A DNA stretch of 64,000 bases from Paenibacillus sp. FSL M7-0420 (GTDB taxonomy: Bacteria > Bacillota > Bacilli > Paenibacillales > Paenibacillaceae), in NCBI RefSeq assembly GCF_038002345.1, contig NZ_JBBOCJ010000001.1, positions 930,001-994,000 on the forward strand, read 5' to 3'. This document shows positions 11,436 through 55,650 of the stretch, piece by piece. Positions within the stretch are counted from its first letter, which is position 1; each line of letters begins with the position of its first letter. Below the pieces are notes generated by a model that searched no databases, had not been told where the DNA came from, and saw only the letters and a list, made by a program, of their open reading frames with translations. Made by a program: the position numbers and the translations under genes.

Positions 11436-11620
11436 AATTGTATTTTGTACAACTAAAACGCCTGGTTTGCTCCCCAGTATACGTTTAGCTGTATTTCGTA
11501 CACTTAAAATCCCCGCTTTCCCGAGTTTCCACCCGTTGGGGCAGATTTAGTTGTACAGATTACAGCTATAAGGGGCAAGCCTTCTTTTTCGCTTTTTTTA
11601 AGTGTACATTCTGCAACTAT
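11436..11620. repeat. F-F-R-R intergenic element, copy 1 (51/63/51 bp spacing)
   Basis: Four copies of a motif close to TGTATTTYGTACAACTAAA. Forward copies begin at 11439 and 11490 (51 bp apart). Reverse-complement copies have their GTAC at 11553 and 11604 (51 bp apart), and the inner forward-reverse distance is 63 bp. The arrangement makes a nested imperfect palindrome able to fold into a long hairpin. CCCC and GGGG tracts lie in the central region. Confidence 0.85.
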
Positions 11621-11714
11621 CCCTGAATGTCTACTTGGAACTACACGCCATAAAGCACTGATTAGTTGAAGCTCTCCCGCCAACCCAATGTTCTATTGCA
11701 CCAAATAACCAACT

Positions 11715-11898
11715 GATTGTATTTCCTGCAATGGAAACCTCATATTTTGCTGTGAAATGGGATTCTACTGTATTTCGTACAGCAGAAAGTTGCATTTCAG
11801 GTGAAAAATAGCCATTGCTCGAGATTCAACTGTACAGAATACAATAGAGCCTAGGTGATAGCCATTTTTAGAGAATTCTATGGTACAAAATGCAATTG
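11715..11898. repeat. F-F-R-R intergenic element, copy 2 (51/63/51 bp spacing)
   Basis: Forward motifs begin at 11718 and 11769; reverse motifs have GTAC at 11832 and 11883. The distances 51, 63 and 51 bp are identical to copy 1 although the intervening sequence differs. It starts 279 bp after copy 1 in the same intergenic region. Confidence 0.85.
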
Positions 11899-12025
11899 CT
11901 ATTGTTCTAGCTAGCACAGCATCAGATGTTTAGCTACAGGAATGAAGCATTCGCGTGATAAGATCTGATCATTGTCATATTCACAAGATTAGCTCTGATG
12001 ATGTACTAGTTAGGGAGATCTGTAC

Positions 12026-12066
12026 AAAAAAAGAACCCTGCACCACCGCGAGCGGTGGGCAGGGTT
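12026..12066 (-). terminator. Rho-independent terminator of the YghZ-like reductase gene
   Basis: AACCCTGCACCACCG (12034-12048) pairs with CGGTGGGCAGGGTT (12053-12066), with one unpaired base in the longer arm. A run of seven A on the plus strand (12026-12032) gives the minus-strand T tail. It lies about 95 bp after the gene's stop. Confidence 0.85.
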
Positions 12067-12073
12067 GCCGTCA

Positions 12074-12131
12074 TATCTGTGATCTAGGATCTGTAATCTA
12101 TAATCTGTGATCTGGTATCTGTGATCTGTAG
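12074..12131. repeat. Short degenerate tandem repeat of ATCTGTGATCT-like units
   Basis: Five to six imperfect units built on GATCTGTAATCT / ATCTGTGATCT lie between the stop of the reductase gene and its terminator. It is non-coding and would be in the 3' untranslated RNA. Confidence 0.7.
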
Positions 12132-12159
12132 GTTCGGCAGGTGCAGTATCCGCCCCGGC

Positions 12160-13149
12160 TTATCCGCGCAGAATTGTCTCAATCTGCTCCAGCTCTTCCG
12201 CGCTTAGCTCAGGCGCATTCAGTGAAGCTACGGCATCCTCGATCTGGCTGATCTTGCTTGCCCCGATCAGTGCAGAGGTCACCTTGCCGCCGCGCAGCAC
12301 CCACGATAAGGCGAGCTGGGACATCTTCTGTCCGCGTGCAGCCGCAATCTCGTTCAGCTTGCCAACCTTGGCAAGCACCTCAGGCGTGAGCTCCTTCTTC
12401 GAGAGGAAGACACTCGGACCGGCTGCGCGGGAATCAGCTGCGATGCCGTTCAGGTAGCGGTCGGTCAGAATCCCCTTTTGCAGCGGGGAGAAGGCGATGG
12501 TGCCGATGCCCTCTTCCTCCAGCACATCCTGCAGGCCGTCCTCAATCCAGCGCGACATCATTGAATAGTTCGGCTGATGGATCAAGCACGGCGTGCCTAG
12601 GCGGCGGAGAATCTGCGCGGCTTCACGCGCTTCCTCCGGTCTGTAGTTCGAGATGCCGACGTACAGCGCCTTACCCTGGCGTACCAGCAGGTCGAGGGCA
12701 GACATGGTTTCTTCCAGCGGCGTATTCGGATCTGGACGGTGGTGGTAGTAGATGTCTACATAATCTAGCCCCATCCGCTTCAGGCTCTGATCCAGACTGG
12801 AGACGAGATACTTCTTGGAGCCCCATTCACCGTAAGGGCCGGGCCACATATAGTATCCTGCTTTGCTGGAGATGATCAATTCATCGCGGTAAGGGGCAAG
12901 ATCCTTCTTCAGCATCTGCCCGAAGCTCTCTTCGGCAGAGCCGGCGGGCGGACCGTAGTTATTAGCGAGGTCGAAGTGGGTGATTCCTAAGTCAAACGCC
13001 CGGCGGACCATAGCGCGGCCGTTCTCGAAGACATCATTGCCTCCGAAATTATGCCACAGCCCGAGGGAGATGGCCGGCAGCAGCAGGCCGCTGCGTCCGG
13101 TGCGGTTATATTTCATCGTGTCATAGCGTTCAGGATTGGCGATATACAT
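12160..13149 (-). CDS. yghZ: Aldo/keto reductase, YghZ / L-glyceraldehyde-3-phosphate reductase type
   Basis: 329 residues. The N-terminus (YIANPERYDTMKYNRTGRSG), the block SLGLWHNFGGNDVF and NNYGPPAGSAEESFG are characteristic of the YghZ subgroup, which reduces L-glyceraldehyde-3-phosphate and detoxifies methylglyoxal. Catalytic Tyr (NNYG), Lys (SSKAGY) and His (YYHHRPD) are present. The start has AGGAGGA upstream. It lies 95 bp downstream of an AraC regulator on the same strand, which may control it. Confidence 0.9.
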   Translation of the reverse strand: MYIANPERYDTMKYNRTGRSGLLLPAISLGLWHNFGGNDVFENGRAMVRRAFDLGITHFDLANNYGPPAGSAEESFGQMLKKDLAPYRDELIISSKAGYYMWPGPYGEWGSKKYLVSSLDQSLKRMGLDYVDIYYHHRPDPNTPLEETMSALDLLVRQGKALYVGISNYRPEEAREAAQILRRLGTPCLIHQPNYSMMSRWIEDGLQDVLEEEGIGTIAFSPLQKGILTDRYLNGIAADSRAAGPSVFLSKKELTPEVLAKVGKLNEIAAARGQKMSQLALSWVLRGGKVTSALIGASKISQIEDAVASLNAPELSAEELEQIETILRG

Positions 13150-13244
13150 ATTGGATTCCTCCTAAGTTTAAGTTGTGCGGGACTTCATACCTCCCTAATT
13201 GTAGCGGATAAACGCTTTCAATCGTATGTCAGCAAGGATGATTT

Positions 13245-14087
13245 TTATAGCACAATGTCCGTATCTGCATGGCGGAGCCGGTATTCTTTGGGCGAGCAGC
13301 CCTTCACCTTCTTGAACATCCGGGAAAAGAGCAAAGCATCCTGATACCCCACGGATTGCGAGATCTCCCCGATGGTGCAGCCGGTCTCTGTCAGCAGCTC
13401 GCAGGCTTTGGACATACGGAATTGGAGCAGATATTGCTGCGGCGGCAAGCCGACCGTCCGCTTGAACAGCGCCGACATATATTTGCGGTCCAGCTTCAGG
13501 GAAGCGGACAGACTCTCCATCGTCACATTCTCGGCGTAGTGGGCTTGAAGGTAATGCAGGCACTGCTCGACATAGACACTTCTGCTGCGCGGAGCCGGGC
13601 TGTCGGCAGCCGGGACCTTGCGAAGCAGCAGGGCGAAGAACTCATAGAGCATCACCTTCAGCGGCAGGTCCAGCAGCGCTCCGCTGCTCCCCGTCTTAGA
13701 TAACCTGGCAGACAGCGAGGGCATCAGCTCCTGATCCATCGGGAACACCGGCTGCTCCGGGGTAAGCGAAGTTCGTGACAACAGATAGGCCGCCTCCTCC
13801 CCGGTAAAAGCAATCCAGGAATACAGCCAAGGATCATCCTGATCTGCGGCATAATGTGTTACCACATGCGGATAAGTGAGGAAAGCCTGCCCTGCGTTCA
13901 ATGTATGGGTGGCTTCACCGACGGTTACCTTGCCGGTTCCGGCGTGAATGAAGTGGACTTTGTACAGGTTGCGTACTCCGGGTCCGAATGAATGACCGGG
14001 TGCGCACTGCTCCTGGCCCCAGTAATGCAGATACAGGTCAGGATTGGCCCGGTGGGGCCGATGGGCGTTATATTTGAATACAGTCAT
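13245..14087 (-). CDS. AraC-family transcriptional regulator with cupin sensor domain
   Basis: 280 residues from ATG 14087 (TTTAxx cupin start MTVFKYNAH; AGGAAATGAGG upstream); an ATG at 14135 without a ribosome site would add 16 residues. The N-terminal half is an AraC-binding cupin (HAGTGKVTVGEATHTLNAGQ). The C-terminal 100 residues hold two helix-turn-helix motifs (MESLSASLKLDRKYMSALFK; IGEISQSVGYQDALLFSRMF) and the usual GCSPKEYR end. It is probably sugar- or small-molecule-responsive. The adjacent downstream reductase is the most likely target. Confidence 0.88.
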   Translation of the reverse strand: MTVFKYNAHRPHRANPDLYLHYWGQEQCAPGHSFGPGVRNLYKVHFIHAGTGKVTVGEATHTLNAGQAFLTYPHVVTHYAADQDDPWLYSWIAFTGEEAAYLLSRTSLTPEQPVFPMDQELMPSLSARLSKTGSSGALLDLPLKVMLYEFFALLLRKVPAADSPAPRSRSVYVEQCLHYLQAHYAENVTMESLSASLKLDRKYMSALFKRTVGLPPQQYLLQFRMSKACELLTETGCTIGEISQSVGYQDALLFSRMFKKVKGCSPKEYRLRHADTDIVL

Positions 14088-14530
14088 GCTTGCAGCCTCA
14101 TTTCCTATAAGGATGATGGCACTCCTAATGAACATATAACTCTAGTATACCTCAGAAGGAGGAGGACCGGACAACCGCAAATAGTCCCAGCCCGGGGAGG
14201 GGAGGGACTGAGAGTATGAGGCTGAAGGCAGACTGGCTGGTGCTGCTGGGAATCAGGCTTCCATTTTGAGCATAGAGTATAGTCTCTTTTGGATTAATAA
14301 CTGCCATGAACCGGAGAATTCAGTGTAATCTAAGCTGACCTCAACCCACTGAATTTGTGGAAAATGTGTCCGGCGGGCAAATTCCTGTTTCATAAATTTT
14401 TTTGCGGAACCCGGCTTAAGATTGAAAGTTACCAGTTTCGCGGAGAAGGGTTTGGTTAAGTAAGGGATGTGAAAGTAAAGCGAGAGTTAAACCATTAACA
14501 ACCTAAATCAGCTACCAGGAGGGAATCGTT
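14088..14530. other. Divergent intergenic region, no gene seen
   Basis: About 440 bp between the AraC gene and the glycine-zipper gene. It must carry both promoters. I see no ORF with a ribosome site, no clear hairpin-T terminator and no repeat of the 51-bp families. A TTGAAA hexamer lies near 14425 without a convincing partner. Confidence 0.5.
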
Positions 14531-15415
14531 ATGAATAAGAAAATTGTAGGTGTGTTCCATACCGAGCATGAAGCATCACGGGCCATTGAAGACTTGAAGG
14601 CGCACGGCTTTCTGACAGAGGATATCTCAGTGATAGCAAGAAATAAACGCGATGTGGAAGCGATCAATGATGAGACGGGGACCAAGGTGCCGGAGGGCTT
14701 GGCTACGGGCGCAGCAACAGGCGGTCTACTCGGCGGTGTGACCGGACTGCTGGCAGGCATCGGTGCGCTGGCAATCCCGGGAATCGGGCCGATTATCGCA
14801 GCGGGGCCGATTGCAGCCACCCTGACAGGAGTAGCCGTAGGAGCAGGAACGGGCGGTCTGGTCGGCGGTCTGATCGGGCTGGGGATTCCGGAGGATGAAG
14901 CCGCCAGCTATGACAACTATGTGGACGAAGGCCGCATTCTGGTTATGGTGGATGCAGATATTGCGCGCGAAAAGGATGTGTACACTGTATTCCGCAACCA
15001 TAACTCGGCGAATGCTGACCGCTATATGAGGAGTGCCGGTACTGCGGATACGGCTGCTGATATGAATGCTCCACGGGACTCCGTGACAGACGCAGTGGAT
15101 GCGGCGTTCAATGGCTCAGGTCTGGAAGGCCGGCATGATACGGGGCTGGATACGATGAATTCGGCTACGGAGCATGACCTCCCGGAGCGAAGCGCAGTGG
15201 AGGATATGAAGCGGCCGGGAATGACAGGGGATCTGTATTCCGGCACGCGTAACGGTATCGACAAGATGCCGGATCATACTGCGGAACGCAGGCTCCAGGA
15301 TGAGGAGGATCGGCTGGCACAGGAAGCCGCCAGGCACGAGGGGGCACGGCCTGGCAGTGCCGGTGGAGTACGGGCGGAGGACCGTGAGGAATTGCTGAGA
15401 CGGCCCCGGCCGTAG
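14531..15415 (+). CDS. General stress protein 17M-like (YflT domain) glycine-zipper protein
   Basis: 294 residues. Residues 1-60 are the YflT/GSP17M-like domain (KKIVGVFHTEHEASRAIEDL, LTEDISVIAR). Residues about 60-120 are a Gly/Ala-rich membrane zipper (GGLLGGVTGLLAGIGAL). A short VDEGRILVMVDAD segment follows, then a hydrophilic acidic/basic tail of about 130 residues without recognisable domains. Good ribosome site (AGGAGG). Family members are stress-induced, but the molecular role is unknown. The long disordered tail is unusual for the family. It is followed by a strong terminator. Confidence 0.85.
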   Translation: MNKKIVGVFHTEHEASRAIEDLKAHGFLTEDISVIARNKRDVEAINDETGTKVPEGLATGAATGGLLGGVTGLLAGIGALAIPGIGPIIAAGPIAATLTGVAVGAGTGGLVGGLIGLGIPEDEAASYDNYVDEGRILVMVDADIAREKDVYTVFRNHNSANADRYMRSAGTADTAADMNAPRDSVTDAVDAAFNGSGLEGRHDTGLDTMNSATEHDLPERSAVEDMKRPGMTGDLYSGTRNGIDKMPDHTAERRLQDEEDRLAQEAARHEGARPGSAGGVRAEDREELLRRPRP

Positions 15416-15465
15416 CGATTTCAAGTGGGCTTCCATCTAGGGAGGCTCATCCAAGCGTCAATAAG

Positions 15466-15510
15466 AAGGGTTTCCCGAAGTCCCGACGGACTTCAGGGGG
15501 AGCCCTTTTT
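15466..15510 (+). terminator. Rho-independent terminator
   Basis: AAGGGTTTCCCGAAGTC pairs with GACTTCAGGGGGAGCCCTT around a short CCGACG loop and is followed by TTTTT, 50 bp after the stop of the YflT-like gene. Confidence 0.88.
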
Positions 15511-15610
15511 GCGTGGATATGTTAAGGGAAAGGGGAGTGGGGCAGGAATAGGGTATATATTGTATAGGTGAAATTTATCTGGAAAACGGATGAAAAGGAG
15601 GTGTTTACTT

Positions 15611-16210
15611 GTGCGGAAATCATTTGTCCTGTTCATGGGCGGATTATTCGTTCTGATGCTAGTGACCAGTGGATGCAGCAAGGATAGGCCTAAATACGCT
15701 GAGTTGTTCTCACAGGTTGAGAAGCACCGGGCTGTATTCAAGCAGCCGCTTGAAGAAGGGCTTGCTGTCCTGGGGATGAAGGATGCTGCACAAGTGTACG
15801 ACACAACCTTAGGTACACTGATGCTGGACGAAAAACTGACCGTCAATCAAAAGGAATTCGTCCAGCAGATGACGGCAGATGTCACAAACGGTAAGATCAC
15901 CGGTTACCGGATCGGGACGGTTCTTCCCAGATCGGACAGCGGGTATGAGGATGCGAGAGAGCTGGTACGTGCTTTCCTGAACCAATACAAACCAGGAGAT
16001 GAGGCAGAGGCTGACAAAGTAGAGGAATCACTCCAGTCGATTGACGGGATGACCTTCCCATTGAAGCCGCTGACTGGAGCAGTAGAAGAATCCTGGACGC
16101 ACGGCGAGGGTGATGACAAGTTGTTCATCACCTATAGAATGGCAAATAGCCTCGATAGCGATAAAGAATTGCCGCTGAATTTGTATTTCAGCTCAGAAGA
16201 GAAGCTATAG
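15611..16210 (+). CDS. Lipoprotein, unknown
   Basis: 199 residues from GTG 15611, chosen because AAAGGAGGTG lies 7 bp upstream; the in-frame ATG at 15590 overlaps that site. Signal peptide with lipobox VTSGC (Cys at about residue 22). The mature part is charged, alpha/beta-looking, with no family I recognise. Contains a helical segment around EDARELVRAFLNQYKP. Probably attached to the outer face of the membrane. Monocistronic. Confidence 0.75.
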   Translation: MRKSFVLFMGGLFVLMLVTSGCSKDRPKYAELFSQVEKHRAVFKQPLEEGLAVLGMKDAAQVYDTTLGTLMLDEKLTVNQKEFVQQMTADVTNGKITGYRIGTVLPRSDSGYEDARELVRAFLNQYKPGDEAEADKVEESLQSIDGMTFPLKPLTGAVEESWTHGEGDDKLFITYRMANSLDSDKELPLNLYFSSEEKL

Positions 16211-16244
16211 ACGCCCGTTGGCGTGAAGCCCGTAAAGATAACAG

Positions 16245-16289
16245 AACAGCCTTTATCCCTTTAGGTCGGGGTACAGGCTGTTTGTGTTT
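16245..16289 (+). terminator. Terminator between convergent genes
   Basis: AACAGCCT (16245-16252) pairs with AGGCTGTT (16275-16282); TGTGTTT follows. It lies between the lipoprotein gene and the EamA gene and could act in both directions. Confidence 0.65.
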
Positions 16290-16312
16290 GGGGAGAAGCG
16301 CAGCAGTTACTC

Positions 16313-17257
16313 CTAAACCAGGGGTTCAACGCTTGCTTTTGGAAGAACGGGCATTACCGGTTTAGGCTTGAAGAACAACTGCTTTAGTGCGCCGGCATTC
16401 ACAAGGATGGTTCCGAATATAATCGTGAACACGCCAAGCAGCGTTACCCAGGTGACTGCTTCGTTATAGAACAGGAAGCCTACCCCAACGGCAATCGGCG
16501 GCGAGATGTACAGCCAGGTGGACGGAAAAACCGGATTCGTCTTGGAGACGAGCCAATAGAACAGCGTATGTCCGACCATGGAGCCGACAACGGTCAGGTA
16601 GAGCAGGGAACCTGCGGTTTTAAATGACAACAGGAAGGACGGGTGCAGCGGCTCAGTGAACAGGGAGATGATGAACAGCAGCGCCCCGCCGTACATCATC
16701 TGGGCAGCGTTCAGAGCGACGGGGGACTCGGCGGAGAAGGTGATGGTTACTTTTTTGGAATAGATCGCCCCCGCCGCGTAGCAGAGTTCCCCAATCAGCA
16801 CCACCACACAGCCGATCAGCCAGAGCGGGGTAACGTCAGCCGCCAGGCTGGGCAGCACCAGCAGCAGGACTCCGGTGAACCCGATGATACAGCCGAGCAG
16901 GGAGTAGGCGGGAGCTTTTTGGCGCAGGAAAACCGTCTGCATCAGCAGAATCATCATCGGTCCGGTGGCTGATAATACGGCAGCAAGCCCGGAGGATACA
17001 TATTGTTCCGCCCAGTAGAGCGCGGCGAAGGTGCCGAAGGTAAGGGCTGCTCCTGTGAGCAGCATTTCCTTGCGCAGCAGCAGGGAGAAGCGGGCTTTGC
17101 CTCTAAGAACCATGAACAGGAACAGCACCGCACCCGCCACGAAAAAACGCAGACCCGCAGAGAAGAAGGGCGGCGCTCCGGCGTCTACGCCGATTTTGAT
17201 GGCCAGGAAGGTAGTGCCGAAGATCAGACAGACAAGTGAATAAGCTAACAGAATCAT
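16313..17257 (-). CDS. EamA/DMT-superfamily transporter
   Basis: 314 residues, ten predicted membrane helices in two EamA repeats, with a conserved FGTTFLAIKIGVDAG start and AALYWAEQYVSSGLAAVLSA in the first repeat. Probably exports metabolites such as amino acids or related compounds. Ribosome site AAAGGGGAA. It is divergent from a MocR-type regulator 262 bp away, a common arrangement in which the regulator controls the exporter. Confidence 0.87.
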   Translation of the reverse strand: MILLAYSLVCLIFGTTFLAIKIGVDAGAPPFFSAGLRFFVAGAVLFLFMVLRGKARFSLLLRKEMLLTGAALTFGTFAALYWAEQYVSSGLAAVLSATGPMMILLMQTVFLRQKAPAYSLLGCIIGFTGVLLLVLPSLAADVTPLWLIGCVVVLIGELCYAAGAIYSKKVTITFSAESPVALNAAQMMYGGALLFIISLFTEPLHPSFLLSFKTAGSLLYLTVVGSMVGHTLFYWLVSKTNPVFPSTWLYISPPIAVGVGFLFYNEAVTWVTLLGVFTIIFGTILVNAGALKQLFFKPKPVMPVLPKASVEPLV

Positions 17258-17519
17258 GGTTCAGTTCCCCTTTGCGGTGGTGATGTGCCACCCTCTTACA
17301 AGATTTCAGTTAATCATAGCCTCATAGGCACAGAACAGATTGGAGATAGTAGAACAGTTGCGGGAGGGAATGCTGTACAATAAGGGCAAAGAGAAGTTAG
17401 CGGCTGGGCGTGCGCGGATATGTAGAAGTCGGCAAGCGTCAGAGGGAGCTGTGTCGAGTGAATATTGAGAATTGGAACGGGGGCGACCCCGGTACATGTT
17501 GCAGAAAGGCGGCAGGTTG

Positions 17520-18944
17520 ATGAAAAAAATAGCGGGTGCCGGGCAGAATAATCCCTTATTCCGCCAAGTCTATGAGTTCATGCTGAACCGGATGGAGCGG
17601 GGGGAGTGGAGGGCCGATGATAAACTGCCTTCGATCCGGCTGCTGGCGGAGGAGCTGGGGGTTCACCGGCTGACCGTGTTCAAGGCCTACCGGGCGCTGA
17701 CCGAGAGCGGCAAGCTGTATGTCAAAGACAAATCCGGTTATTATGTGGCCCCGGGCAGCAGGCTGAACCCTCCGCCGGACGAAGGCTCGGCAGTGCCTGG
17801 ATATATGGTCAGGAGCCCGATGTCCGATATTCAGCGGCTGCCGGTCACGTACCAGTTCTCCCAAGCGTTGATTGATCCGGGCCTGCTGCCGAACCTGTTC
17901 CTGTCCGATTATGTCAAAAAAGTATTCGATCTCTACCCGAAGGTCATGGGCACCTACTCCACCGTGGAAGGGGATGAAGAGCTGCGTGTTACGCTGAGCA
18001 GCCATTTCGAGGAGCGGTATAGGCTCCAGCTGTCGGCCCGCGAGCTGCTGATTACTTCAGGCGCACAACAGGCCATCAATCTGATTGCCGGGATCATGCT
18101 TGGTCCGATGGATGCTGTGCTGGTGGAGCGGCCTACTTATAGTGTGGCGCTGGATATTTTTCGGCGGGCAGGAGCGCGGCTGGTAGCTGTGGATATCTCG
18201 CCGCAGGGCTATGACCTGGCGGCGGTGGAGGAGCTGATGCGTAAGAATAAGCCGCGGATGTTCTACATCAACCCGACCCATCATAACCCGACGGGGTATA
18301 CAATTCCGGCGAAGCAGCGCAAGCTGCTGGTGGAGCTTGCGGAGCGCTACCGCTGCCTGCTCGTGGAGGATGATCCGTTCCGTGACATGTACTTTGGGGA
18401 AGAGCCGCCCCCGCCGTTCTTCGCCTATGATACGGAGGGCTGGGTGATGTATATTAGCAGCTACAGCAAATATGTGGCCCCCGGCCTACGGATCTGTGCG
18501 GTGGCCTGCCGTTATCCGTTTATGGAGCGGCTGATCGCCGCCAAGTCCTTGGCGGATAACGGGACGCCTCTGCTGAATCAGAAGATTTTTCTGCATTATT
18601 ATACCTCGCCGCGCTTACAGCAGCATCTCGGCAAGCTGCGGATTGCCCTTCAGGTGCACAAGGAGATTATGGAGGAGGAGCTCACGGCCACCGGCTGGGA
18701 ATGGACAACTCCGCAAGGCGGGCTTAATCTGTGGGTCAAGCTGCCGGACAGTATTCCGGTAGCTAAGCTGCTGGCCCGTTGCCTGGAGCAATCCATCTCC
18801 TTCGTTCCCGGTGAGCTCTGCGATCCGCTGGGGGAGATGAAGTCCTGGCTGCGTCTCAGCTACTCGTTCGCCAGTGAAGCCTTGCTGCGCGAGGGAATGC
18901 AGCGGCTCACCGCCATTGCGCGGGAGATTGAGGCGGGGGAATAG
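17520..18944 (+). CDS. MocR/GntR-type transcriptional regulator with aminotransferase domain
   Basis: 474 residues from ATG 17520; upstream ATGs at 17496 and 17472 are possible. Residues about 10-75 are a GntR winged helix (DDKLPSIRLLAEELGVHRLT). Residues about 110-470 are a fold-type I aminotransferase-like domain with the PLP lysine in SSYSKYVAPGLR and the conserved NPTHHNPTGYT. MocR proteins use PLP as a ligand or sense aldimines rather than transaminate. Divergent from the EamA exporter, its likely target. Confidence 0.88.
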   Translation: MKKIAGAGQNNPLFRQVYEFMLNRMERGEWRADDKLPSIRLLAEELGVHRLTVFKAYRALTESGKLYVKDKSGYYVAPGSRLNPPPDEGSAVPGYMVRSPMSDIQRLPVTYQFSQALIDPGLLPNLFLSDYVKKVFDLYPKVMGTYSTVEGDEELRVTLSSHFEERYRLQLSARELLITSGAQQAINLIAGIMLGPMDAVLVERPTYSVALDIFRRAGARLVAVDISPQGYDLAAVEELMRKNKPRMFYINPTHHNPTGYTIPAKQRKLLVELAERYRCLLVEDDPFRDMYFGEEPPPPFFAYDTEGWVMYISSYSKYVAPGLRICAVACRYPFMERLIAAKSLADNGTPLLNQKIFLHYYTSPRLQQHLGKLRIALQVHKEIMEEELTATGWEWTTPQGGLNLWVKLPDSIPVAKLLARCLEQSISFVPGELCDPLGEMKSWLRLSYSFASEALLREGMQRLTAIAREIEAGE

Positions 18945-19009
18945 ATGGCGGGCGTGTGTAACCTTTCTCTGGAAATTTCCGTCTGAGGGTTATGAGGAGC
19001 GTGATATTG

Positions 19010-19729: not shown

Positions 19730-20297
19730 CCTGAATGAAGCGAACGCGGGCCCGCGATGAGCATAGGAAGGGCAGAAGTACACCTGAATATGCCGGATGC
19801 GCACTAAACGAGCGAATAGGGTGCACTAGTGCCCCTGAATGCAGCGGACTCGGGCGAAAGGAGCGAATGGGGTGCACTAGTGCACCTGAATGCAGCGGAC
19901 TCGGGCGAAAGGAGCGAATGAGGAGCATTAGTGCACCTGAATGCAGCGGATGCGCGCGAAAGGAGCGAATGAGGAGCATTAGTGCACCTGAATGCAGCAG
20001 ATGCGCGCTAAACGAGCAAATGAGGTGCACTAGTGCGCTTGAATTCCCCGGATGCGGGCAAAAGGAGCGAATGAGGAGCATTAGTGCACCTGAATTCAGC
20101 ATACGCGCGCGAAACGAGCGAATGAGGAGCATTAGTGCGCTTGAATTCCCCGGATGCGGGCAAAAGGAGCGAATGAGGAGCATTAGTGCACCTGAATTCA
20201 GCATACGCACGCGAAACGAGCGAAGGAGGTGCACCAGTGCACCTGAATGCAGCAGACTCGCGCTAAATAAACAAAGGAGGGGCATTAATGCCCCTCC
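19730..20297. repeat. 51-bp tandem repeat array A
   Basis: About eleven units. The anchor CCTGAAT (or CTTGAAT) occurs at 19730, 19783, 19834, 19885, 19936, 19987, 20038, 20089, 20140, 20191 and 20242: a 53-bp first step, then exactly 51 bp each time. Units carry a palindrome around GTGCACTAGTGCAC, and GGAGCGAATGAGGAGC. Two unit types alternate near the end, giving a 102-bp higher-order duplication (about 20033-20134 and 20135-20236). The array occupies the whole space between two convergent genes. All frames being a multiple of 17 codons creates spurious ORFs on both strands. Confidence 0.92.
20276..20297 (-). terminator. Perfect 22-bp palindrome, terminator of the cysC operon
   Basis: GGAGGGGCATT followed by AATGCCCCTCC is a perfect palindrome. 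Read on the minus strand it is followed by TTTGTTTATTT, a terminator tail, 23 bp after the cysC stop. It lies exactly where the next 51-bp unit's palindrome is expected, so it looks like an altered last repeat unit used as a terminator. Confidence 0.75.
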
Positions 20298-26376: not shown

Positions 26377-26880
26377 AATGTAATCGAAAAACCGATCACA
26401 TTTGGCACGGCGGTGGCGTATGGTCCGAATGTAGTCGGAAAACTGAACACATTGGGCCTGGCGGAGGCGTGTGGTCCGAATGTAATCGAAAAACCGATCA
26501 CATTCGGCCTGACGGCGGCGTGTGGTCCGAATGTAATCGAAAAACCGACCACATTTGGCGTGGCGGTGGCGTGTGGTCCGAATGTAATCGAAAAACCGAT
26601 CACATTTGGAGTGGCGGTGGCGTGTGGTCCGAATGTAATCGAAAAACCGATCACATTTAGCGTGGCGGTGGCGCGCGACCCAAATGTAGTCGAAAAACCG
26701 ACCACATTCGGCCTGGCGGTGGCGTGTGGTCCGAATGTAGTCGAAAAACCGATCACATTTAGCCTGGCGGTGGCGCGTGGTCCGAATGTAGTCGAAAAAC
26801 CGATCACATTCGGCCTGGCGGTGGCGTGTGGTCCCAATGTAATCGAAAAACCGACCACATTTGGCACGGCGGTGACCCCC
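26377..26880. repeat. 51-bp tandem repeat array B with dyad core
   Basis: Ten units starting at 26377, 26428, 26479, 26530, 26581, 26632, 26683, 26734, 26785 and 26836, exactly 51 bp apart. Each begins with AATGTAATCG or AATGTAGTCG, then AAAAAC or similar, then CGATCACATT or CGACCACATT, a near-perfect inverted repeat. A 25-bp GC-rich part follows (GCGGTGGCGTGTGGTCCG). Lies between the feoB permease terminator and the first gene of the STM4015-cysC operon. The 17-codon period makes long false ORFs on both strands. Confidence 0.93.
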
Positions 26881-26905: not shown

Positions 26906-26943
26906 AAAAAAAGCACTATCCGCCCGTCCGGGGGAATAGTGCT
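26906..26943 (-). terminator. Rho-independent terminator of the feo operon
   Basis: On the minus strand AGCACTATTC pairs with GGATAGTGCT across a GC-rich loop and is followed by seven T. Lies just after the stop of the permease gene and just before array B. Confidence 0.9.
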
Positions 26944-47537: not shown

Positions 47538-47587
47538 AGCATACAAAACAGTCGTTCAAGCGAAGCTGCCTATGCTCCCCGCTCTTC

Positions 47588-48145: not shown

Positions 48146-48400
48146 AATTGTTGGCCTCCTTGAGATGGGTGTTATGGTCATGCGGGCTTATTATCTCTGA
48201 TGGGGCTGGCGAATATTCACGCTTCTGTTGCAAGGGAGGCGCTTCCGCCAAGAACGGTTACAATATTGCAAACGTTGCGTCACTCCGGGCGGGACGAGTT
48301 GATAAGAATAGGTACAGGCTGCTCTGCAACTATTGCGGCAAATGAACGTCTATGTAGAAAGACAATCCAGAATCATCCATAACCTGGAGGTGGGGCAACT

Positions 48401-49306: not shown

Positions 49307-49418
49307 AGTAGCAGGGCGCTGCGCAAGGCCAGATGATCCAACCAATATGCCGCCGTATACTGCGGCTCCAGAAGCCAGCCGATCGATTATTGATGGGCTG
49401 GCTTCAATGTTTCACTAG

Positions 49419-50033
49419 GTGAGTAGAGTGACAGGATACATAGAGAATAGTAATATGAGAGAGATTTGTTATATTCTTGATCTGCCAGGGGAGGGACTGA
49501 AGATTAGAGTACGTATTATAGGCGGCTGCGGGAGCGGGAAGACGTATATCGCCCGGAAATTAGCTCAAAGTTACGGAATTCCATGCTATGAAACGGATAA
49601 TTTTGTCTGGGATCGCATGGACAACACCAAGAACTCCCCGGAGGTACGGGATGCCAAGCTCGCGGAAGCTATGGATGCGGAGTCGTGGATCATAGAGGGC
49701 GTGCATTACCAATGGGGAACCGAAAGCTTCCGGCAAGCGGATCTGATTTTTCTGATTCGGCCTAAGGCTTATGTACAGGATGCCCGGGTCATCAGCAGGT
49801 TCATGAAGACCAGGCTGGGGCTGGAGCAGGGGAATTATAAGCAGTCGTTCAAGTATCTCCGGGTGATGCTGCTGGAATGGAACCGCGGCTTCCGGAGGGA
49901 GAGTATTCCTGCGATTATGGCATTAACCGAACAGTATCAGGCTAAACGGATCATCGTGCAGCAGAATCGTGAGATTTTGCAGCATGTCGGCAGGTATGTG
50001 CGGGGGAAGAGTGTGCTGGGAGCGAGTGATTAA
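49419..50033 (+). CDS. P-loop kinase, DNA topology modulation (FlaR)-like
   Basis: Up to 204 residues; the start is uncertain. Options are GTG 49419, ATG 49455, or a shorter form beginning close to the Walker A, where GGGGAGGG precedes an ATT. Walker A GGCGSGKTYIARKLA, then YETDNFVWDR, WIIEGVHYQWG and DLIFLIRPKAY are typical of the adenylate-kinase-like FlaR group. Biological role unclear in this family. Confidence 0.75.
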   Translation: MSRVTGYIENSNMREICYILDLPGEGLKIRVRIIGGCGSGKTYIARKLAQSYGIPCYETDNFVWDRMDNTKNSPEVRDAKLAEAMDAESWIIEGVHYQWGTESFRQADLIFLIRPKAYVQDARVISRFMKTRLGLEQGNYKQSFKYLRVMLLEWNRGFRRESIPAIMALTEQYQAKRIIVQQNREILQHVGRYVRGKSVLGASD

Positions 50034-50115
50034 TGGGATTGTATGGGAGGCCCGAGTTGTGTGGCCGGGGTTATGGACATGAGTGATAGACTACTTTTGC
50101 GTGAGGGGTGAAAGT

Positions 50116-50685
50116 ATGGAGCCGTGGATCGAGGAAGAACTTAATTTATACGATTTTGTAGGCTTTTGGAAAAGAGTGCTGATTAATTTCATCGATTTCC
50201 TGATTCTTATTTTTCCAACTTACTTGCTGGAGCGGATTTCAGTTTCTGCTGCAGAATCGGCAGGGTCAGCGTTCCCGCTTTTTATACAGTTTGTACTGCT
50301 TATGGCGTTCAATGTATTTATGGTTGTCCAATACGGAGGCACGCCGGGCAGGCTTCTTTTGAGGGCAAGAATCGTTGATGAGAATGGAAGATATCCGGTG
50401 CTCAAGCAGGCTTTAATCAGGGATAGTTTTATTATTGTTAACAGCTTCCTGGCAGTGATTGTAGGTCTGAATTCAGAGGCGTTATCCGCCATACCAAGCA
50501 GTCCCGTGAACTGGAGTCCGCTTGCGGCGGATTTGAATGCTTTTATTGGCTGGGTCGTGGTGTTGGATTGCCTATTCATCGTATTTACCCCACGCAAGCG
50601 GGCGCTGCATGATCTGATGGCCCGAACTTATGTGGTGAACAAAACAGCGCTGGACCGTGATCAGACAGGAAAATTCATAGCATAA
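50116..50685 (+). CDS. RDD-family membrane protein
   Basis: 189 residues from ATG 50116 (GAGGGGTGAAAG upstream). Three to four helices; GFWKRVLINFIDFLIL, YGGTPGRLLLRARIVDENG and RKRALHDLMARTYVV are RDD family features. Function unknown; some RDD proteins act as Na+ or Li+ transporters. Confidence 0.85.
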   Translation: MEPWIEEELNLYDFVGFWKRVLINFIDFLILIFPTYLLERISVSAAESAGSAFPLFIQFVLLMAFNVFMVVQYGGTPGRLLLRARIVDENGRYPVLKQALIRDSFIIVNSFLAVIVGLNSEALSAIPSSPVNWSPLAADLNAFIGWVVVLDCLFIVFTPRKRALHDLMARTYVVNKTALDRDQTGKFIA

Positions 50686-50805
50686 GGCAATGTGTATAAT
50701 ACCTGGATCAGGAGGCCTGCACCTGCAACCTTTGTTACAGCCCCTGCGTCATAGGGTACAGTTTAGACACACGAGGATGTTTCCAACAACGAAGGAGATG
50801 GCAGC

Positions 50806-51558
50806 ATGACTACATCAATTAGAACAATCACAGGTATTCTTATCATTGGTGCGATGCTAAGTCTTACAGCCTGTAATTCCGGCAAAACGAATACATCGTC
50901 AAGCAATACGGCTGCGGCTACAGCGACTGTGCAGACAGGGGATAATGCTTCATCTGCAGCAGAAGGTGCGCGGGTAAGCGGATCTAGTACAGATGACGGC
51001 GCTGCTGCGGGTGCAGAGCCTGTAACTGCTGACCCTGAAGCCGCTGCCGGAGCTGCATCAGAGTCTACGGTCACTGAAGCCGCAGGGGCTGAAGCAGATA
51101 CCGTAGCTCCCGCCACTCCGCAGGAACGCAGCAAGCAGCTGAAGGAGCTGCTGGAGCTTGCTAAGCAGGGCAAGGTGCCCGGCGTCGAATATGCTGCACA
51201 CACCGGACTTATTGATGAGGTGGAAGCAGCATGGGGAGAGCCGGATCTCAAGGAATCGGCAGGCAAAGGGATCTATTCCACCTATTCAGGCAAGCAGGTG
51301 GTAATCGGCTTCAATAAGGGCAGCAAGATTTTCGATGTGCGCTCCAGCGCCCCGGACCTGCGTAACCTGACACTGGAACAGATTGAAGAGGTGCTCGGGA
51401 AGCCGGATGCCACCACCGTGAATGGTGAGCATAACATCTATATTTATCAGGCCAACAAGCAGTATCAGCTCAAATTCATCATTCCGGAATCAACAGGAAC
51501 GGTAGATCATATCTCCGTGTTTTCGGAGCAGGATTCTATTAATAATATGGCAGGCTAG
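50806..51558 (+). CDS. YjgB/DUF4309-like lipoprotein
   Basis: 250 residues. Lipobox LTACN (Cys23), then an ~85-residue Ala/Ser/Thr/Glu-rich linker, then a DUF4309-type domain (KVPGVEYAAHTGLIDEVEAAWGEPD read in segments; LEQIEEVLGKPD). Membrane-anchored, extracellular. Ribosome site GAAGGAG. Followed by a terminator and repeat array C. Confidence 0.83.
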   Translation: MTTSIRTITGILIIGAMLSLTACNSGKTNTSSSNTAAATATVQTGDNASSAAEGARVSGSSTDDGAAAGAEPVTADPEAAAGAASESTVTEAAGAEADTVAPATPQERSKQLKELLELAKQGKVPGVEYAAHTGLIDEVEAAWGEPDLKESAGKGIYSTYSGKQVVIGFNKGSKIFDVRSSAPDLRNLTLEQIEEVLGKPDATTVNGEHNIYIYQANKQYQLKFIIPESTGTVDHISVFSEQDSINNMAG

Positions 51559-51590
51559 TCAGCTCAGAGCATCTTAGAGCAACTATGATA

Positions 51591-51624
51591 TCCCCTTGCA
51601 GCGGCAACTGCAGGGGGATTTTTT
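51591..51624 (+). terminator. Terminator of the YjgB-like gene
   Basis: TCCCCTTGCAG pairs with CTGCAGGGGGA, followed by six T; 33 bp after the stop. Confidence 0.9.
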
Positions 51625-51636
51625 CGGTTTACAGCC

Positions 51637-51975
51637 ATGTAATCGGAAAACCGATTACAATGGGACCGAAGGCGGCGCGCAGGTCAAATGTAATCGAAAA
51701 ACCGATCACAATGGGACCGAAGGCGGCGCGCAGGCCAAATGTAATCGAAAAACCGATCACAATGGGACCGAAGGCGGCACGCAGGCCAAATGTAATCGAA
51801 AAACCGATTACAACGGGACCGGGGGGCGGTGCGCAGGCCAAATGTAATCGGAAAACCGATTACAATGGGACCGAAGGCGGCGTGTAGGCCAAATGTAATC
51901 GAAAAACCGATTACAATGAGACCGAGGGACGGCGTGTAGGCGAAATGTAATCGAAAAACCGCTGGCGCGTGAGCC
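51637..51975. repeat. 51-bp tandem repeat array C with the same dyad core as array B
   Basis: Seven units with ATGTAATCG at 51637, 51688, 51739, 51790, 51842, 51893 and 51945. Steps are 51, 51, 51, 52, 51 and 52 bp. The core TGTAATCG-GAAAAC-CGATTACA is a perfect 8-9 bp hairpin in several units. The intervening half (GGGACCGAAGGCGGCGCGC) differs from array B. The last unit is truncated after the core. Lies between a terminator and the winged-helix gene. Confidence 0.92.
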
Positions 51976-52069
51976 AGGCCGCCTTAACCAGTTGCGAGTA
52001 CTTAAATAAAGTCAACGCATGATGTATACTTTCTCTTATGAAAGAAATCAGAAGAAATGAGGCACGGCC

Positions 52070-53224
52070 ATGCATCTGGAGCTGATCGCAAGTGAATATA
52101 AGGTATCCGCCGGAGGATTAACGGTAGAGCTGTTGCCCAAGGAGTTCGCACTACTGCAGTTTCTGTACCGCAACCGGGGGCGGACCTTCAGCCGCGAGCA
52201 GCTGCTGGATAAAGTGTGGCCGATGGAGTATCCGGTGGAGCGGACGGTGGACGATCATATCTACAGGCTGCGTAAGAAGCTGAGGCCGTTAGGCGGGATC
52301 GACATTAAGACGATCCGCGGCTTCGGCTACAGTCTGACAATTCCAGGGAGTCTGGAAGGCGTAGCGGTGAATCCGGCAACGCATGATTCTGGGCTGCGGG
52401 ATACCATGCGCGAGGTCTTCTCGAAATTCCATGTGTACGGCCAGGGCAAATCGATGCTCACTCTGGCCCGCCAGCAGGACATCCTTGGCTATGAGCTGGA
52501 CCCGCATTATGCGATGGTTGTTCATTTCGTGCAGGGAGATCTGGAGTGGCTGATTCATACGGACGAGATACCGCTGAAGGACCGGCTCTTTTACCTCAAT
52601 CTGTTCTACTTCTTCACTGGCAATCCCAAGGAGAAGGTGGAATACGCCGAGCGCCTCATAGAGCGGAATCTGCTGAACGCCCCTGAACAGCTGGAGCTGG
52701 AGATTCTGACGATGCTGGACTTGTACACCCTTGCCGGGTTGCCGGAGCTAGCGCTGGAACGCCTGAAACGAACCTACCAGGTCATCGCTGAACCCGGCTT
52801 CGAGAATTTCATACCTGTTACGATGATTACCGAGTTGTTCGTCCGTCTGGTGGCGGGTGCCGGTGAGGAAGAACTGGAACGGCTGGATGAAGCAGTGGGC
52901 CGAGTGCTGCGGGATAAGCCTTTTTTGCGCGAGATTGGCAGTTATAAGGTGGTAAAAGGTCTCTGGGCGCTACGGCGTGAACAATGGGCGGAAGGGGATA
53001 AGCTGATTCAGGAGGGGCTGCAGGTGATGGAGATGTCCGGCTTCGTTCCGCTGCGGCTCTATTCGATCTACCGGATTCACCATTTCTGCCGCATGTTCCT
53101 GGCGGGAAGCTCCTTGGACCGCAAATATGAGGAACTGTTCACTACAGGCCTTGAAGTTTGCGGCCTGCCCCGGCTGGAGCAGACGCTTGAGGATCTGCTG
53201 CTGGGATTGCCGGAAGCCCTCTGA
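52070..53224 (+). CDS. Winged-helix regulator with C-terminal helical (BTAD/TPR-like) domain
   Basis: 384 residues. Residues about 1-95 are an OmpR/PhoB-type winged helix (LPKEFALLQFLYRNRGRTFS; VDDHIYRLRKKL; IKTIRGFGYSL) with no receiver domain before it. Residues about 120-384 are helical repeats, similar to BTAD/TPR activator domains. Likely a ligand- or partner-controlled activator. An MFS gene starts 80 bp downstream and may be its target. I see only a weak ribosome site. Confidence 0.8.
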   Translation: MHLELIASEYKVSAGGLTVELLPKEFALLQFLYRNRGRTFSREQLLDKVWPMEYPVERTVDDHIYRLRKKLRPLGGIDIKTIRGFGYSLTIPGSLEGVAVNPATHDSGLRDTMREVFSKFHVYGQGKSMLTLARQQDILGYELDPHYAMVVHFVQGDLEWLIHTDEIPLKDRLFYLNLFYFFTGNPKEKVEYAERLIERNLLNAPEQLELEILTMLDLYTLAGLPELALERLKRTYQVIAEPGFENFIPVTMITELFVRLVAGAGEEELERLDEAVGRVLRDKPFLREIGSYKVVKGLWALRREQWAEGDKLIQEGLQVMEMSGFVPLRLYSIYRIHHFCRMFLAGSSLDRKYEELFTTGLEVCGLPRLEQTLEDLLLGLPEAL

Positions 53225-53303
53225 TATTTCTCTGACAATCCTCCGTTATCTTAGGATCATAGATGGATCATCTAAGATTACAGGTAACCTGGAGGAATGT
53301 CAG

Positions 53304-54587
53304 ATGGAGATTTCAACCAAGCAGGGAACAAGCCTGCTGCACAACAAAACGTATATGCGGGTCTACACGGCGTTCGCCACTGCCAGCTTCGGCGACTGGT
53401 TCGATGCGCTGGCCATTCAAGTGCTGGTCGGCTACCGCTGGCAGGCCAGTCCGCTGATGCTGGCGCTCATTCCGGTAGCCCTAGCGCTGCCGAGCATTCT
53501 GCTCGGCTCGGTTGCCGGCGCGGCCGCCGACCGGATGAACAAGCTGAAGCTGATGCGTATCTGCGACCTGCTGACCGCTCTCTTGACCCTACTGGTGCTG
53601 TTCGCTCCGAGTATGGTCTGGCTGCTGCCGCTGCTGGCCCTGCGCTCCGCGCTGTCCACGCTGAATATGCCGGCTCAGCAGTCCCTGACCCGCAGTCTCG
53701 TGAGAGAAGACCAGCTGCTGCAAGCCTCATCACTCAACGGACTGGTCAACCAGGGCTCCAAAATCGCAGGTCCCTTGCTCGGAGGTCTGGCCCTCGCCTT
53801 CCTTACGCCGCAGTGGTGCATCCTGCTGAATGCCTTGCTGCGCGGCTGCTCTTATCTGTTGTTGTTGTCTATCAAGAATATCCGCACGGATGAAGCAGAC
53901 AGCAAGCTGTCTGAAGCGCAGGAAGGCAAGCTCCCGCTTCTCACAATGTGGCGGGAAGGCTGGGGCTTCCTGCTGCGCAGCCGGCTGCTGCTGACCGCGA
54001 TGTTCTTCGGACTGGCCGGATCAATGGTCATTCAGGTGGTTGATTTTCAGTTCACCAGTCTGTTCCGGATCTTCGCACCGGAGCGGGAAGCGCTGCTGGG
54101 CTGGATGGTTGCCGCCACGGGAGCGGGAGCCGTGCTGATCATTCTGGTTCTGAACAAGCTGAAATCCGAATACGGGTATGGCTGGAAGCTGGGCCTCGGG
54201 TATGTGCTGATTGGCGGGGCGATTGCGGCGCTGGGTCTGCTTCAGCCGGGGGCGTCAATTCTGTGGGTGCTGTTCATCGGCTTTGTGCTGGGGATCGGCA
54301 ACGGTATGTTTATGGTGACGTTCAATTATTGTCTGCAAAAAGAAACCCCGCCGCACATGATAGGCCGAATCTTCGGGATCCAGAATACCGTACTCAGCGC
54401 GGTGCTGATTGTAGCGCCTCTCCTGGGCGGTGTGCTGGTGCAGTATGCGGGTCCGGCCCGTATATTTGTCAACATTGGCTTGCTGCAGGTGCTCCTGGGT
54501 CTGACAGGTGTGGTGTTTGGCCGGCAGCTCTGGCCGGTGGCGGGGTCTAAAGCGGAAGCCGCTCATCCGGCAGCAGAGAGTAGCTAA
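53304..54587 (+). CDS. MFS transporter
   Basis: 427 residues from ATG 53304 (CTGGAGGA upstream). About twelve helices; ATASFGDWFDALAIQVLV start and GSVAGAAADRMNKLKLM loop 2-3 motif. Resembles the MefA/enterobactin-exporter type of drug-efflux MFS (MFS_3). Substrate unknown. Downstream of the winged-helix regulator on the same strand. Confidence 0.88.
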   Translation: MEISTKQGTSLLHNKTYMRVYTAFATASFGDWFDALAIQVLVGYRWQASPLMLALIPVALALPSILLGSVAGAAADRMNKLKLMRICDLLTALLTLLVLFAPSMVWLLPLLALRSALSTLNMPAQQSLTRSLVREDQLLQASSLNGLVNQGSKIAGPLLGGLALAFLTPQWCILLNALLRGCSYLLLLSIKNIRTDEADSKLSEAQEGKLPLLTMWREGWGFLLRSRLLLTAMFFGLAGSMVIQVVDFQFTSLFRIFAPEREALLGWMVAATGAGAVLIILVLNKLKSEYGYGWKLGLGYVLIGGAIAALGLLQPGASILWVLFIGFVLGIGNGMFMVTFNYCLQKETPPHMIGRIFGIQNTVLSAVLIVAPLLGGVLVQYAGPARIFVNIGLLQVLLGLTGVVFGRQLWPVAGSKAEAAHPAAESS

Positions 54588-54635
54588 GAAGGTTGATAGA
54601 TCACTAATGTCTGTATGGACGAACAGGAGGAGCTT

Positions 54636-55202
54636 ATGACTACTTATATCTACATGGTGAGGCACGGGGATTCGCTGCGGACCGGGGTGGATGAATGGAC
54701 GCGCGGCCTGTCGCCCAAGGGGGAGGAGGATGCCCAGCGGGTCACGGAATGCCTGAAGGATGAAGGCATAGATGCCCTGTACAGCAGCCCGTATATCCGG
54801 GCGGTTAATACAATTGCGGATTTGGCGGATAAGCTGGAGCAGGAAATCATTCTGATCGATGATCTGCGGGAAAAGGTCTGGATGGAGGGCAACCAGCAGC
54901 TAACCGACGATGACCTGTATCTTGAGCTCCAGAAGATGTACACCGATCCGGATTACGCCCTGCCGGGCGGGGAATCAAACCGGGAGTGCCAGGCACGTGC
55001 AGTGAAGGCGCTACAGGACATTCTGCGGACCCATGCTGGGGAGCGGGTGGTCATCGGCACCCATGGCATGGTGATGTCCTTGATGATGGGCTATTTTGAC
55101 CCGGGATATGGTCTGGACTTCTTACTACAGACGACCAAGCCGGATATCTATGTCATGGAGTTCGAAGAAGATGAAGTACTGGTCCGGCGGATGCCTGTGT
55201 AA
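54636..55202 (+). CDS. Histidine phosphatase family protein
   Basis: 188 residues from ATG 54636 (AGGAGGAG upstream). YMVRHGDSLRTG with catalytic RHG, LYSSPYIRAVNT, and second His in IGTHGMVMSLMMGYF. Follows the MFS gene by 48 bp and could be co-transcribed. Substrate unknown. Confidence 0.9.
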   Translation: MTTYIYMVRHGDSLRTGVDEWTRGLSPKGEEDAQRVTECLKDEGIDALYSSPYIRAVNTIADLADKLEQEIILIDDLREKVWMEGNQQLTDDDLYLELQKMYTDPDYALPGGESNRECQARAVKALQDILRTHAGERVVIGTHGMVMSLMMGYFDPGYGLDFLLQTTKPDIYVMEFEEDEVLVRRMPV

Positions 55203-55298
55203 GCTAAGGGCAGAATAATTACCATTATTACAAAAAATGGTGAAGTAACATGATAGTCATTACGCTAAAAGGTAACAATCGCCCAATAAATTCAAGAA

Positions 55299-55337
55299 GG
55301 CAGCCGACCAAAGTGGTGGCTGCCTATTTAGCTTTTC
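55299..55337 (+). terminator. Terminator of the phosphatase gene
   Basis: GGCAGCC (55299-55305) pairs with GGCTGCC (55318-55324), extended by ACC/GGT in the loop, followed by a T-rich stretch. Confidence 0.78.
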
Positions 55338-55466
55338 TTAATCAGCTAGTCGCAAACGGATAATCCGGAATTTCCCTCTTAAAATCATGCGCGCGCCTAA
55401 CAGCGTCTTCTTGCTCTGCTATAGAGACATCTTCAAAGACTGGGTTCGAAGCGAACATTCGGGGAT

Positions 55467-55650
55467 AGTTGTATTCTATACATTTAAAAACAGTCAAAGG
55501 GAAGGATTTCCTCTTCTAGCTGTAGTTTGTACAACTAAATTTGCCCGAGTGGGCGAGATCCCGGATAATGAGGCATTTTATATGTATGAAATACAACTAA
55601 ACGGTTATTCGGCGGTAAATCAAACGATTTAGTTGTACTAAATACACTTA
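55467..55650. repeat. F-F-R-R intergenic element, copy 3 (51/63/51 bp spacing)
   Basis: Forward motifs (TGTATTCTATACA, TGTAGTTTGTACAACTAAA) begin at 55470 and 55521. Reverse motifs have their GTAY at 55584 and 55635. Distances are 51, 63 and 51 bp, the same as the two copies 44 kb away. Confidence 0.85.

Follow-up and report, generated by a model that had tools for sequence, protein, structure and literature searches.

The intergenic repeats in a 64,000-nucleotide stretch of the genome of Paenibacillus sp. FSL M7-0420 (the window, C1:930001-994000, where C1 is contig NZ_JBBOCJ010000001.1 of the 7.67 Mb, 2-contig host assembly) keep a common step of 51 or 52 base pairs (bp) and, by sequence comparison, fall into at least three classes without significant similarity to one another, alpha, beta and delta. 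Every unit consists of a 25-26 bp inverted-repeat site (a dyad) together with a far less conserved spacer of near-constant length. Judging from the sequence, we tentatively regard as the best explanation that these may be operator-like sites held in helical register, homogenized by unequal exchange and propagated or retained in one orientation relative to the replication fork, although we would stop short of calling this probable. The six repeats of the window are three four-motif elements and three tandem arrays.

11436..11620, no strand assigned: delta element 1, four dyads in ++-- order, steps 51-57-51
11715..11898, no strand assigned: delta element 2, arm variant TTCTACTGTA...TACAGCAGAA, steps 51-57-51
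19731..20297, plus strand: array A, beta family, tandem units of 51 bp lying between convergent genes, their dyads being of the type GGTGCACTAGTGCACC (located by Tandem Repeats Finder, TRF, and anchor words)
26377..26880, plus strand: array B, alpha family, 10 dyads TGTAATCG-AAAAAC-CGATTACA and variants, 51 bp apart, between two minus-strand genes
51637..51975, plus strand: array C, alpha family, 7 dyad starts with steps 51,51,51,52,51,52, the last dyad truncated
55467..55650, no strand assigned: delta element 3, steps 51-57-51, in the orientation opposite to element 1

The initial annotation had placed six repeats with a 51-bp step here, and its anchor counts hold: the anchor words are 51 bp apart in 9/10 steps of array A (the last is 52), in 9/9 of array B and in 4/6 of array C (the other two being 52), and all same-orientation steps of the four-motif elements are 51. 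A second anchor in array A gives steps of 53-51-51-51-51-50-52-50-52-51, in which the 50/52 pairs arise because the word set contains a 1-base variant. TRF assigns a period of 51 to all three arrays, with overlapping multiples of 102, 103, 153 or 154 for A and C. The same annotation considered the repeats to be unlike except for B and C; these two do form one family, but the three four-motif elements also constitute a single family, delta. The fourth motif of delta element 1 is under the score threshold, yet it is in place in the register alignment described below. This element sits inside a dispersed block of approximately 315 bp (11356-11670) that is 94% identical to a block at host C1:4409666, and the dispersal around it is thus wider than the four motifs. 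At the orthologous places in the relative G114, delta elements 1 and 2 are absent and delta element 3 is present; the place of elements 1 and 2 is occupied by a different sequence with alpha-like remnants, hence there is no clean junction.

We sampled C1 of the host genome at 80 places, taking 20 kb at each (1.6 Mb in total), at intervals of 76 kb over most of the contig and of 152 kb between 3.04 and 5.95 Mb. In this sample TRF assigns period 51 to 29 arrays and period 52 to 8, with 1-4 arrays at any other period of at least 30, and the lag spectrum (40-bp windows with at least 80% identity, lags 40-65) contains 5208 matches at 51 and 1305 at 52, versus 0-374 at each other lag. When intergenic status is judged from simple gene calls made for this analysis, 36 of the 44 intergenic arrays with a period of at least 25 have units of 51, 52, 102 or 154 bp. 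Eight have other periods, two of them resembling clustered regularly interspaced short palindromic repeats (CRISPR), and a few intergenic arrays of 36, 37, 43, 45 and 72 bp occur in the sample. Three more 51-bp arrays overlap open reading frames (ORFs) accepted by the gene caller; among 46 arrays, with a 63-bp coding one set aside, only three share more than 10% of their length with a called gene, and the sampled arrays are mostly intergenic and mostly located 3′ of at least one gene. These counts confirm that the 51-bp signal is not due to chance and is genome-wide in the sampled host DNA. A sharp peak at 51 bp across unrelated intergenic repeats had been set in advance as the test, and that is what the sampled host genome displays; the opposite outcome, many lengths with no enrichment of 51, did not occur in the 1.6 Mb. 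We also note that arrays of 72, 39 and 37 bp share stretches with 51/52-bp arrays (L055 5069-8193 and L067 15741-15910), the 39-bp array of this set overlapping an ORF accepted by the gene caller, and that a CRISPR-like array with the repeat GTCGCACTCCGTATGGAGTGCGTGGATTGAAAT lies in stretch L023 (5507-6417).

The alpha unit, found in arrays B and C and in most other arrays, has the dyad AATGTAATCG-AAAAAC-CGATTACATT and its variants followed by a G-rich spacer; the host contains 412 matches to the alpha motif at two mismatches or fewer. An alpha subfamily, TGTATGTG-AAAAAC-AGCATACA, has a period of 52 (7 host arrays), and by eye the two forms, F1 (51) and F2 (52), have the dyad core and the spacer pattern in common. 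Beta dyads are such as TCAGGTGCAGAAGTGCACCTGA or AAGGGATAAATCCCTT, and 13 arrays (A plus 12 of the host sample) fit one consensus. Delta dyads are close to YTGTATTTCGTACAR and carry longer arms, either TTTAGTTGTA...TACAACTAAA or TTCTACTGTA...TACAGTAGAA; a tandem type TGCAC...GTGCA (host 162883 and 1613375) resembles delta by eye, and one of its chains scores in the delta scan. Dyad arms change symmetrically between lineages (TGTACTCG/CGAGTACA, TGTATGCG/CGCATACA, TGTAATCG/CGATTACA). Circular comparison of the alpha, beta and delta units, the last as one representative unit, finds no match beyond shuffles (p = 0.105, 0.80 and 0.25), and remote homology of the three classes is by these matches neither shown nor excluded.

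A fixed length with free sequence, as the repeats were initially described, proves to be correct for the length; in the sequence it is the spacer that varies, with the dyad conserved. Alpha dyad steps in the host sample and window (n = 143) are 51 in 98 cases, 52 in 41, 50 in two, and 53 and 58 in one each, and at the loci of relatives (n = 74) they are 51 in 44 and 52 in 26. At P. piscarius and P. silagei loci, represented by 59 stretches picked by exact motif, 254/276 alpha steps are 51 and the rest are 49, 50 (6), 52 (11), 57, 61, 79 and 103. Between-array identity for the 19 host alpha arrays of period 51 is 0.49 in the spacer (composition baseline 0.36) and 0.82 in the dyad, and for the 7 arrays of period 52 it is 0.74 (baseline 0.30) and 0.97, respectively; within alpha arrays, the mean spacer identity to the array's own consensus is 0.72-1.00. 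A period of 51 or 52 is nonetheless retained in 26/26 host alpha arrays. In non-array intergenic DNA, the window and G114 differ by 51 indels and 477 substitutions (0.107 indels per substitution), and at that rate such spacer divergence at unchanged length is unexpected.

Ten complete ++-- delta elements and eight partial chains are present in the 1.6 Mb sample and the window. Their same-orientation steps are 51 in 25/26 cases (one is 50) and their adjacent opposite steps are 57 in 13/16, with one each of 58, 108 and 46; because the second motif pair is inverted, a dyad start step of 57 reads as 62 between dyad centers, which are thus spaced 51-62-51 bp. The alignment of 12 elements with steps 51/57/51 in a common register and orientation, from which two with a 58 or 50 step were excluded, is gapless, with the motifs at 1.15-1.29 bits and a mean identity of 0.71, and the gaps at 0.51-0.56 bits and an identity of 0.45 (mean) or 0.39 (median) over a baseline of 0.26. 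No full-length element with separated ends is evident among the delta chains of the sample and window.

Across 100 genomes of the genus we searched for TGTA-N5-TACA pairs 36-66 bp apart, with the reversed motif as a control. Pairs are present in 54 genomes, and the control gives one match per strand in six, two of which are without a true match. The 95 pairs tallied among the matches listed (plus-strand rows from six genomes, neighboring pairs within one element not being independent) lie at 51 (44), 52 (25), 62 (17), 61 (4), 60 (1), 50 (3) and 39 (1) bp; 69 are thus at 51/52, 22 are at 60-62, and none of these 95 is at 53-59. In the host sample and window, pairs of this motif within 160 bp (n = 38) are found at 51 (12), 62 (10), 113 (10), 114 (3), and 63, 67 and 118 (one each), and nine pairs at relatives' loci are at 51, 62 and 113, three each. 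The reversed motif yields zero pairs in host sequence, but it is rarer too (25 versus 60 sites). When the motif is relaxed to TGYA-N5-TRCA, steps of 52, 103 and 154 appear as well, together with a small number of irregular ones; four pairs come from the reversed control of alpha type. The two predominant distances, 51 and 62, are about one turn of the helix apart. It is the between-array comparison, the delta geometry and the empty 53-59 zone of the listed pairs that constitute the stronger evidence for a constrained length.

Alpha and beta arrays follow replication rather than transcription in the host. The sign of the host GC skew changes at 3.65-3.8 Mb and 7.24-7.30 Mb, and when alpha arrays with at least three dyads are counted (n = 26), the AAAAAC strand runs along the replichore in 24 (13/15 on the right and 11/11 on the left); the two that deviate lie at about 703 kb and 2205 kb. 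The region around the latter (C1 2204001-2224000) has a low GC skew (0.013), and a local inversion there is possible. Nine alpha singletons, picked by eye among 46 listed hits, likewise follow replication, as do 13/13 beta arrays, two of these on weak matches; the orientation result covers alpha and beta, delta being internally inverted. Since 71.5-73% of host genes are co-oriented with replication, we compared the counts with this gene bias, giving binomial probabilities of 0.026 for 24/26 and 0.0009 for 37/39, although the arrays are not fully independent. Arrays flanked by two opposite-strand genes (B in the window, and host 2132393 and 6993310) keep the replication direction. The relative G063 has 53 alpha dyads on the plus strand, all below 3.96 Mb, and 18 on the minus strand, all beyond 4.78 Mb, an arrangement of 71/71 with one strand switch such as replication-oriented dyads would show. 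In G112 the dyads among the matches listed are plus to 0.12 Mb and then mostly minus to 2.17 Mb, with plus at three places.

The step extends to some relatives. Six genomes were sampled at 160 kb each, or at 80 kb in the case of G028 and G014; the top lag is 51 or 52 in four of them, G001, G006 (weakly), G007 and G028, but both lags are absent from the G012 and G014 samples (160 kb and 80 kb). G001 additionally contains two arrays with a unit of about 41 bp, approximately four helical turns, in one sampled stretch (L134 4540-5066). The alpha pattern occurs in 28/100 genus genomes and in 25/198 genomes of the order, representing 6/43 genera and including another family of the order; alpha steps in other genera, among the matches listed, are 51, 52, 104 or about 154-156. 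At locus C there are about six units in the host and in G114, 3.5 in G101, about two in G112, 1.5 in G115 and one dyad in G113 and G088, and none in, for example, G086, G087, G063, G084, G095 and G092; empty, single-unit and multi-unit forms are thus all found, with flanks too diverged for an insertion junction to be read. Locus B has alpha arrays in nine species including the host (8 relatives), with species-specific spacers and copy numbers, and other species carry a different sequence there. At both loci copy number varies by species and units are homogenized locally within species. IS3-like elements, identified by reading, lie inside arrays at locus A of G114 and locus B of G101.

Terminator-like hairpins adjoin two of the window's arrays, as judged by eye at B and C.

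26906..26943, minus strand: terminator-like hairpin and T-run of a minus-strand gene, beside array B
51592..51624, plus strand: terminator-like hairpin with a T-run, assigned to the upstream gene and immediately preceding array C, with a similar layout in several relatives

Elsewhere, a group II intron occupies window positions 59900-61810 (Rfam RF02003 and RF00029), with an ORF (60416-61708) between its parts. It alone passes in the Rfam search: the repeat elements give nothing above the gathering score, and 11250-12050 gives chance-level matches only.

The arrangement that we favor would work as follows. The dyads are candidate binding sites for a dimeric DNA-binding protein, or for several related ones of differing specificity, and their spacing would keep bound dimers on one face of the helix, separated by five turns within a direct series and by six at the inverted junction, where they could form a cooperative array. 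Unequal exchange or slippage would expand and homogenize the arrays, and new copies would be gained or retained mainly in one orientation with respect to the fork. The dyads, the same-face spacing, the inverted symmetry of delta and the symmetric arm changes fit cooperative dimer binding, and the replication polarity agrees with the lagging strand being where copies insert or where selection acts. Of the three mechanisms proposed in the initial annotation, namely a protein array with a spacing of about five turns, set-unit copying and 17-codon selection, the first accommodates the data best (51/52 direct, 62 at the inverted junction, 53-59 empty among the 95 matches listed). To the original description we have added that conserved dyads are what the repeats have in common, that alpha and beta arrays are polar with respect to replication, and that family relations extend beyond B and C.

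A number of points weigh against this reading. The best alpha-beta circular match (p = 0.105) pairs dyad with dyad, and these two classes might be distantly homologous. Delta gap identity exceeds the composition baseline, so that the argument from a free spacer is weakened for this class and its spacer constancy can partly come from shared descent. Within host alpha arrays 18/142 steps deviate from the array's own period, or 0.062 per spacer substitution versus 0.107 outside arrays, and the indel deficit within single arrays is therefore less than twofold, with much of it being 51/52 exchange. There is no alpha match in 72/100 genus genomes and no delta-type pair in 46/100, and since so many members of the genus lack them, the arrays are dispensable. 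Alpha dyads are often imperfect, the proposed binding partner is a putative protein predicted from spacing and symmetry, and five turns alone leaves the absence of 41 or 62 bp in direct arrays unexplained.

We nevertheless rank the helical array first, with some hesitation, followed by plain descent and then by mobility of the repetitive extragenic palindrome (REP) kind. Under descent without selection on length, one ancient 51-bp unit per class would have been spread and made uniform by recombination with its period inherited, the classes coinciding in length or being remote homologues. The likeness of F1 and F2, the single beta family, the dyad-to-dyad alignment of alpha with beta, the residual similarity of delta spacers and the only moderate depletion of within-array indels all suit this account. 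We consider it rather unlikely, given that alpha spacers have drifted towards the composition baseline and yet 51/52 is kept in 26/26 arrays, that delta holds 51-57-51 in 12 aligned elements at a gap identity of 0.45, and that no 53-59 pair occurs among the 95 matches listed. We also think it unlikely that the repeats are mobile single-strand elements of the REP or IS200/IS605 type, in which hairpin dyads would be recognized on the lagging-strand template by a Y1 (HUH) transposase with 51 bp as the processed segment. The replication orientation, the imperfect hairpins with recurrent mismatches and the near-identical units at distant host arrays (46/51 positions by eye between 389794 and 1605006) all speak for it, and near host C1 3404314 (stretch L120 1041-2958) a Y1 transposase gene and a TnpB-like ORF, identified by reading, lie immediately next to a short alpha array. 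A single Y1 gene is intact in the host, its TnpB-like neighbor marking it as IS605 type, and degraded pieces are present as well. However, PF01797 is present in 11/20 alpha-bearing genomes searched and absent from nine, among them G112, with its 276 dyads, and G063; G001, too, has 51-bp arrays and no PF01797. Hairpins are often mismatched, with A.C at pair 5 in 179/574 dyads, and no GTAG/CGTC tag is conserved among the 26 alpha array consensuses (by eye, alpha only). A Y1 transposase or REP-associated tyrosine transposase (RAYT) as a necessary mobilizer was dropped on the nine genomes without the family; a past transposase, since lost, could still stand behind the arrays.

The remaining accounts fare less well. 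Arrays of RNA hairpins of fixed unit, acting as terminators, antisense or stability elements, would be in keeping with intergenic positions mostly on the 3′ side of genes, with the terminator-like sequences at B and C and with the symmetric arm changes, but the replication orientation is held even where both flanking genes oppose it, and the elements have no Rfam match above the gathering score. Over ten pairs, 179 G.T and 291 A.C wobbles are spread across both strands, and neither strand stands out consistently as the transcribed one; the RNA account was set aside on these mismatches, and we judge it improbable. Replication-coupled copying or slippage, with the unit set by the fork machinery and no binding protein needed, is compatible with an equal step in unlike sequences, with replication polarity and with local homogenization, but it predicts neither the conserved dyads nor the ++-- delta design nor the 62-bp junction, and other periods (36, 37, 43, 45 and 72 bp) occur in the same intergenic sample; we give it very little weight. 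Selection for 17-codon coding units seems to us scarcely credible. 51 is divisible by 3, and long open frames traverse arrays A and B, but the 52-bp subfamily has the same dyad core in 7 host arrays, a mixture of 51 and 52 steps disrupts the reading frame, and almost all arrays lie between genes; coding 17-mers were rejected on the 52-bp arrays.

Several known systems resemble these repeats in part. REP sequences and bacterial interspersed mosaic elements (BIMEs) with their TnpA-REP (RAYT) transposases, and REPINs are likewise short intergenic palindromes present in hundreds of copies, with several families per genome and regular spacing; REP families are described in PMC3733652 and PMC2817692, in the first of which the main text contains neither "Paenibacillus" nor "Firmicutes", and the single-strand (Y1) transposases of the superfamily act at the lagging strand according to PMC6006769. 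The repeats here differ in having head-to-tail 51/52-bp arrays, no conserved alpha tag, no obligatory Y1 and one fixed ++-- class. Minisatellites, or variable number tandem repeats (VNTRs), and satellites of bacteria are also intergenic tandem units, homogenized and varying in copy number between related species, whereas here unlike families have one unit length, a dyad with a variable spacer, and replication polarity. In PMC6749651, dispersed non-coding satellite families with long repeats are reported only in Leptospira interrogans and Methanocella conradii, and "Paenibacillus" does not appear in its main text.

IS200/IS605 elements, which insert precisely on the 3′ side of a short target and do not duplicate it, share the replication-coupled orientation and mismatched hairpins, but the arrays contain no evident gene and 9/20 alpha genomes are without a Y1 match. 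In helically phased operator or centromere arrays, such as iterons, parC/tubC and parS clusters, repeated dyad or direct sites lie on one helical face; the present arrays are instead chromosome-dispersed, with long spacing and a partner protein that is only predicted. CRISPR arrays combine a conserved palindromic repeat with constant-length spacers, but here the spacers are alike within an array and different between loci. Compared with miniature inverted-repeat transposable elements (MITEs), which have inverted ends, sharp boundaries and target-site duplications, delta is dispersed and has the ++-- order, and its closest pair shares a 315-bp block exceeding the four motifs. We found no published description of these repeats in a search of the open-access literature.

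The length of a repeat is usually regarded as an accident of that repeat's origin. Here, one step is shared by at least three classes within a single genome and by the alpha relatives found in other genera, and two of the classes keep replication polarity, which suggests that a spacing rule, and not shared ancestry alone, shapes these repeats. It is conceivable, although we regard it as doubtful, that they make up a dispersed, replication-polar system of helically phased predicted protein-binding arrays, with several site families of differing sequence specificity under one geometric rule, on which a putative protein would assemble one-sided filaments or bridges that mark fork direction or organize the nucleoid. 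What measures 51 bp, and what ties dispersed intergenic repeats to the direction of the fork, become testable questions, and a protein, if one is found, would point to a chromosome-wide system of a new type, architectural or mobile, in this large genus of soil bacteria.

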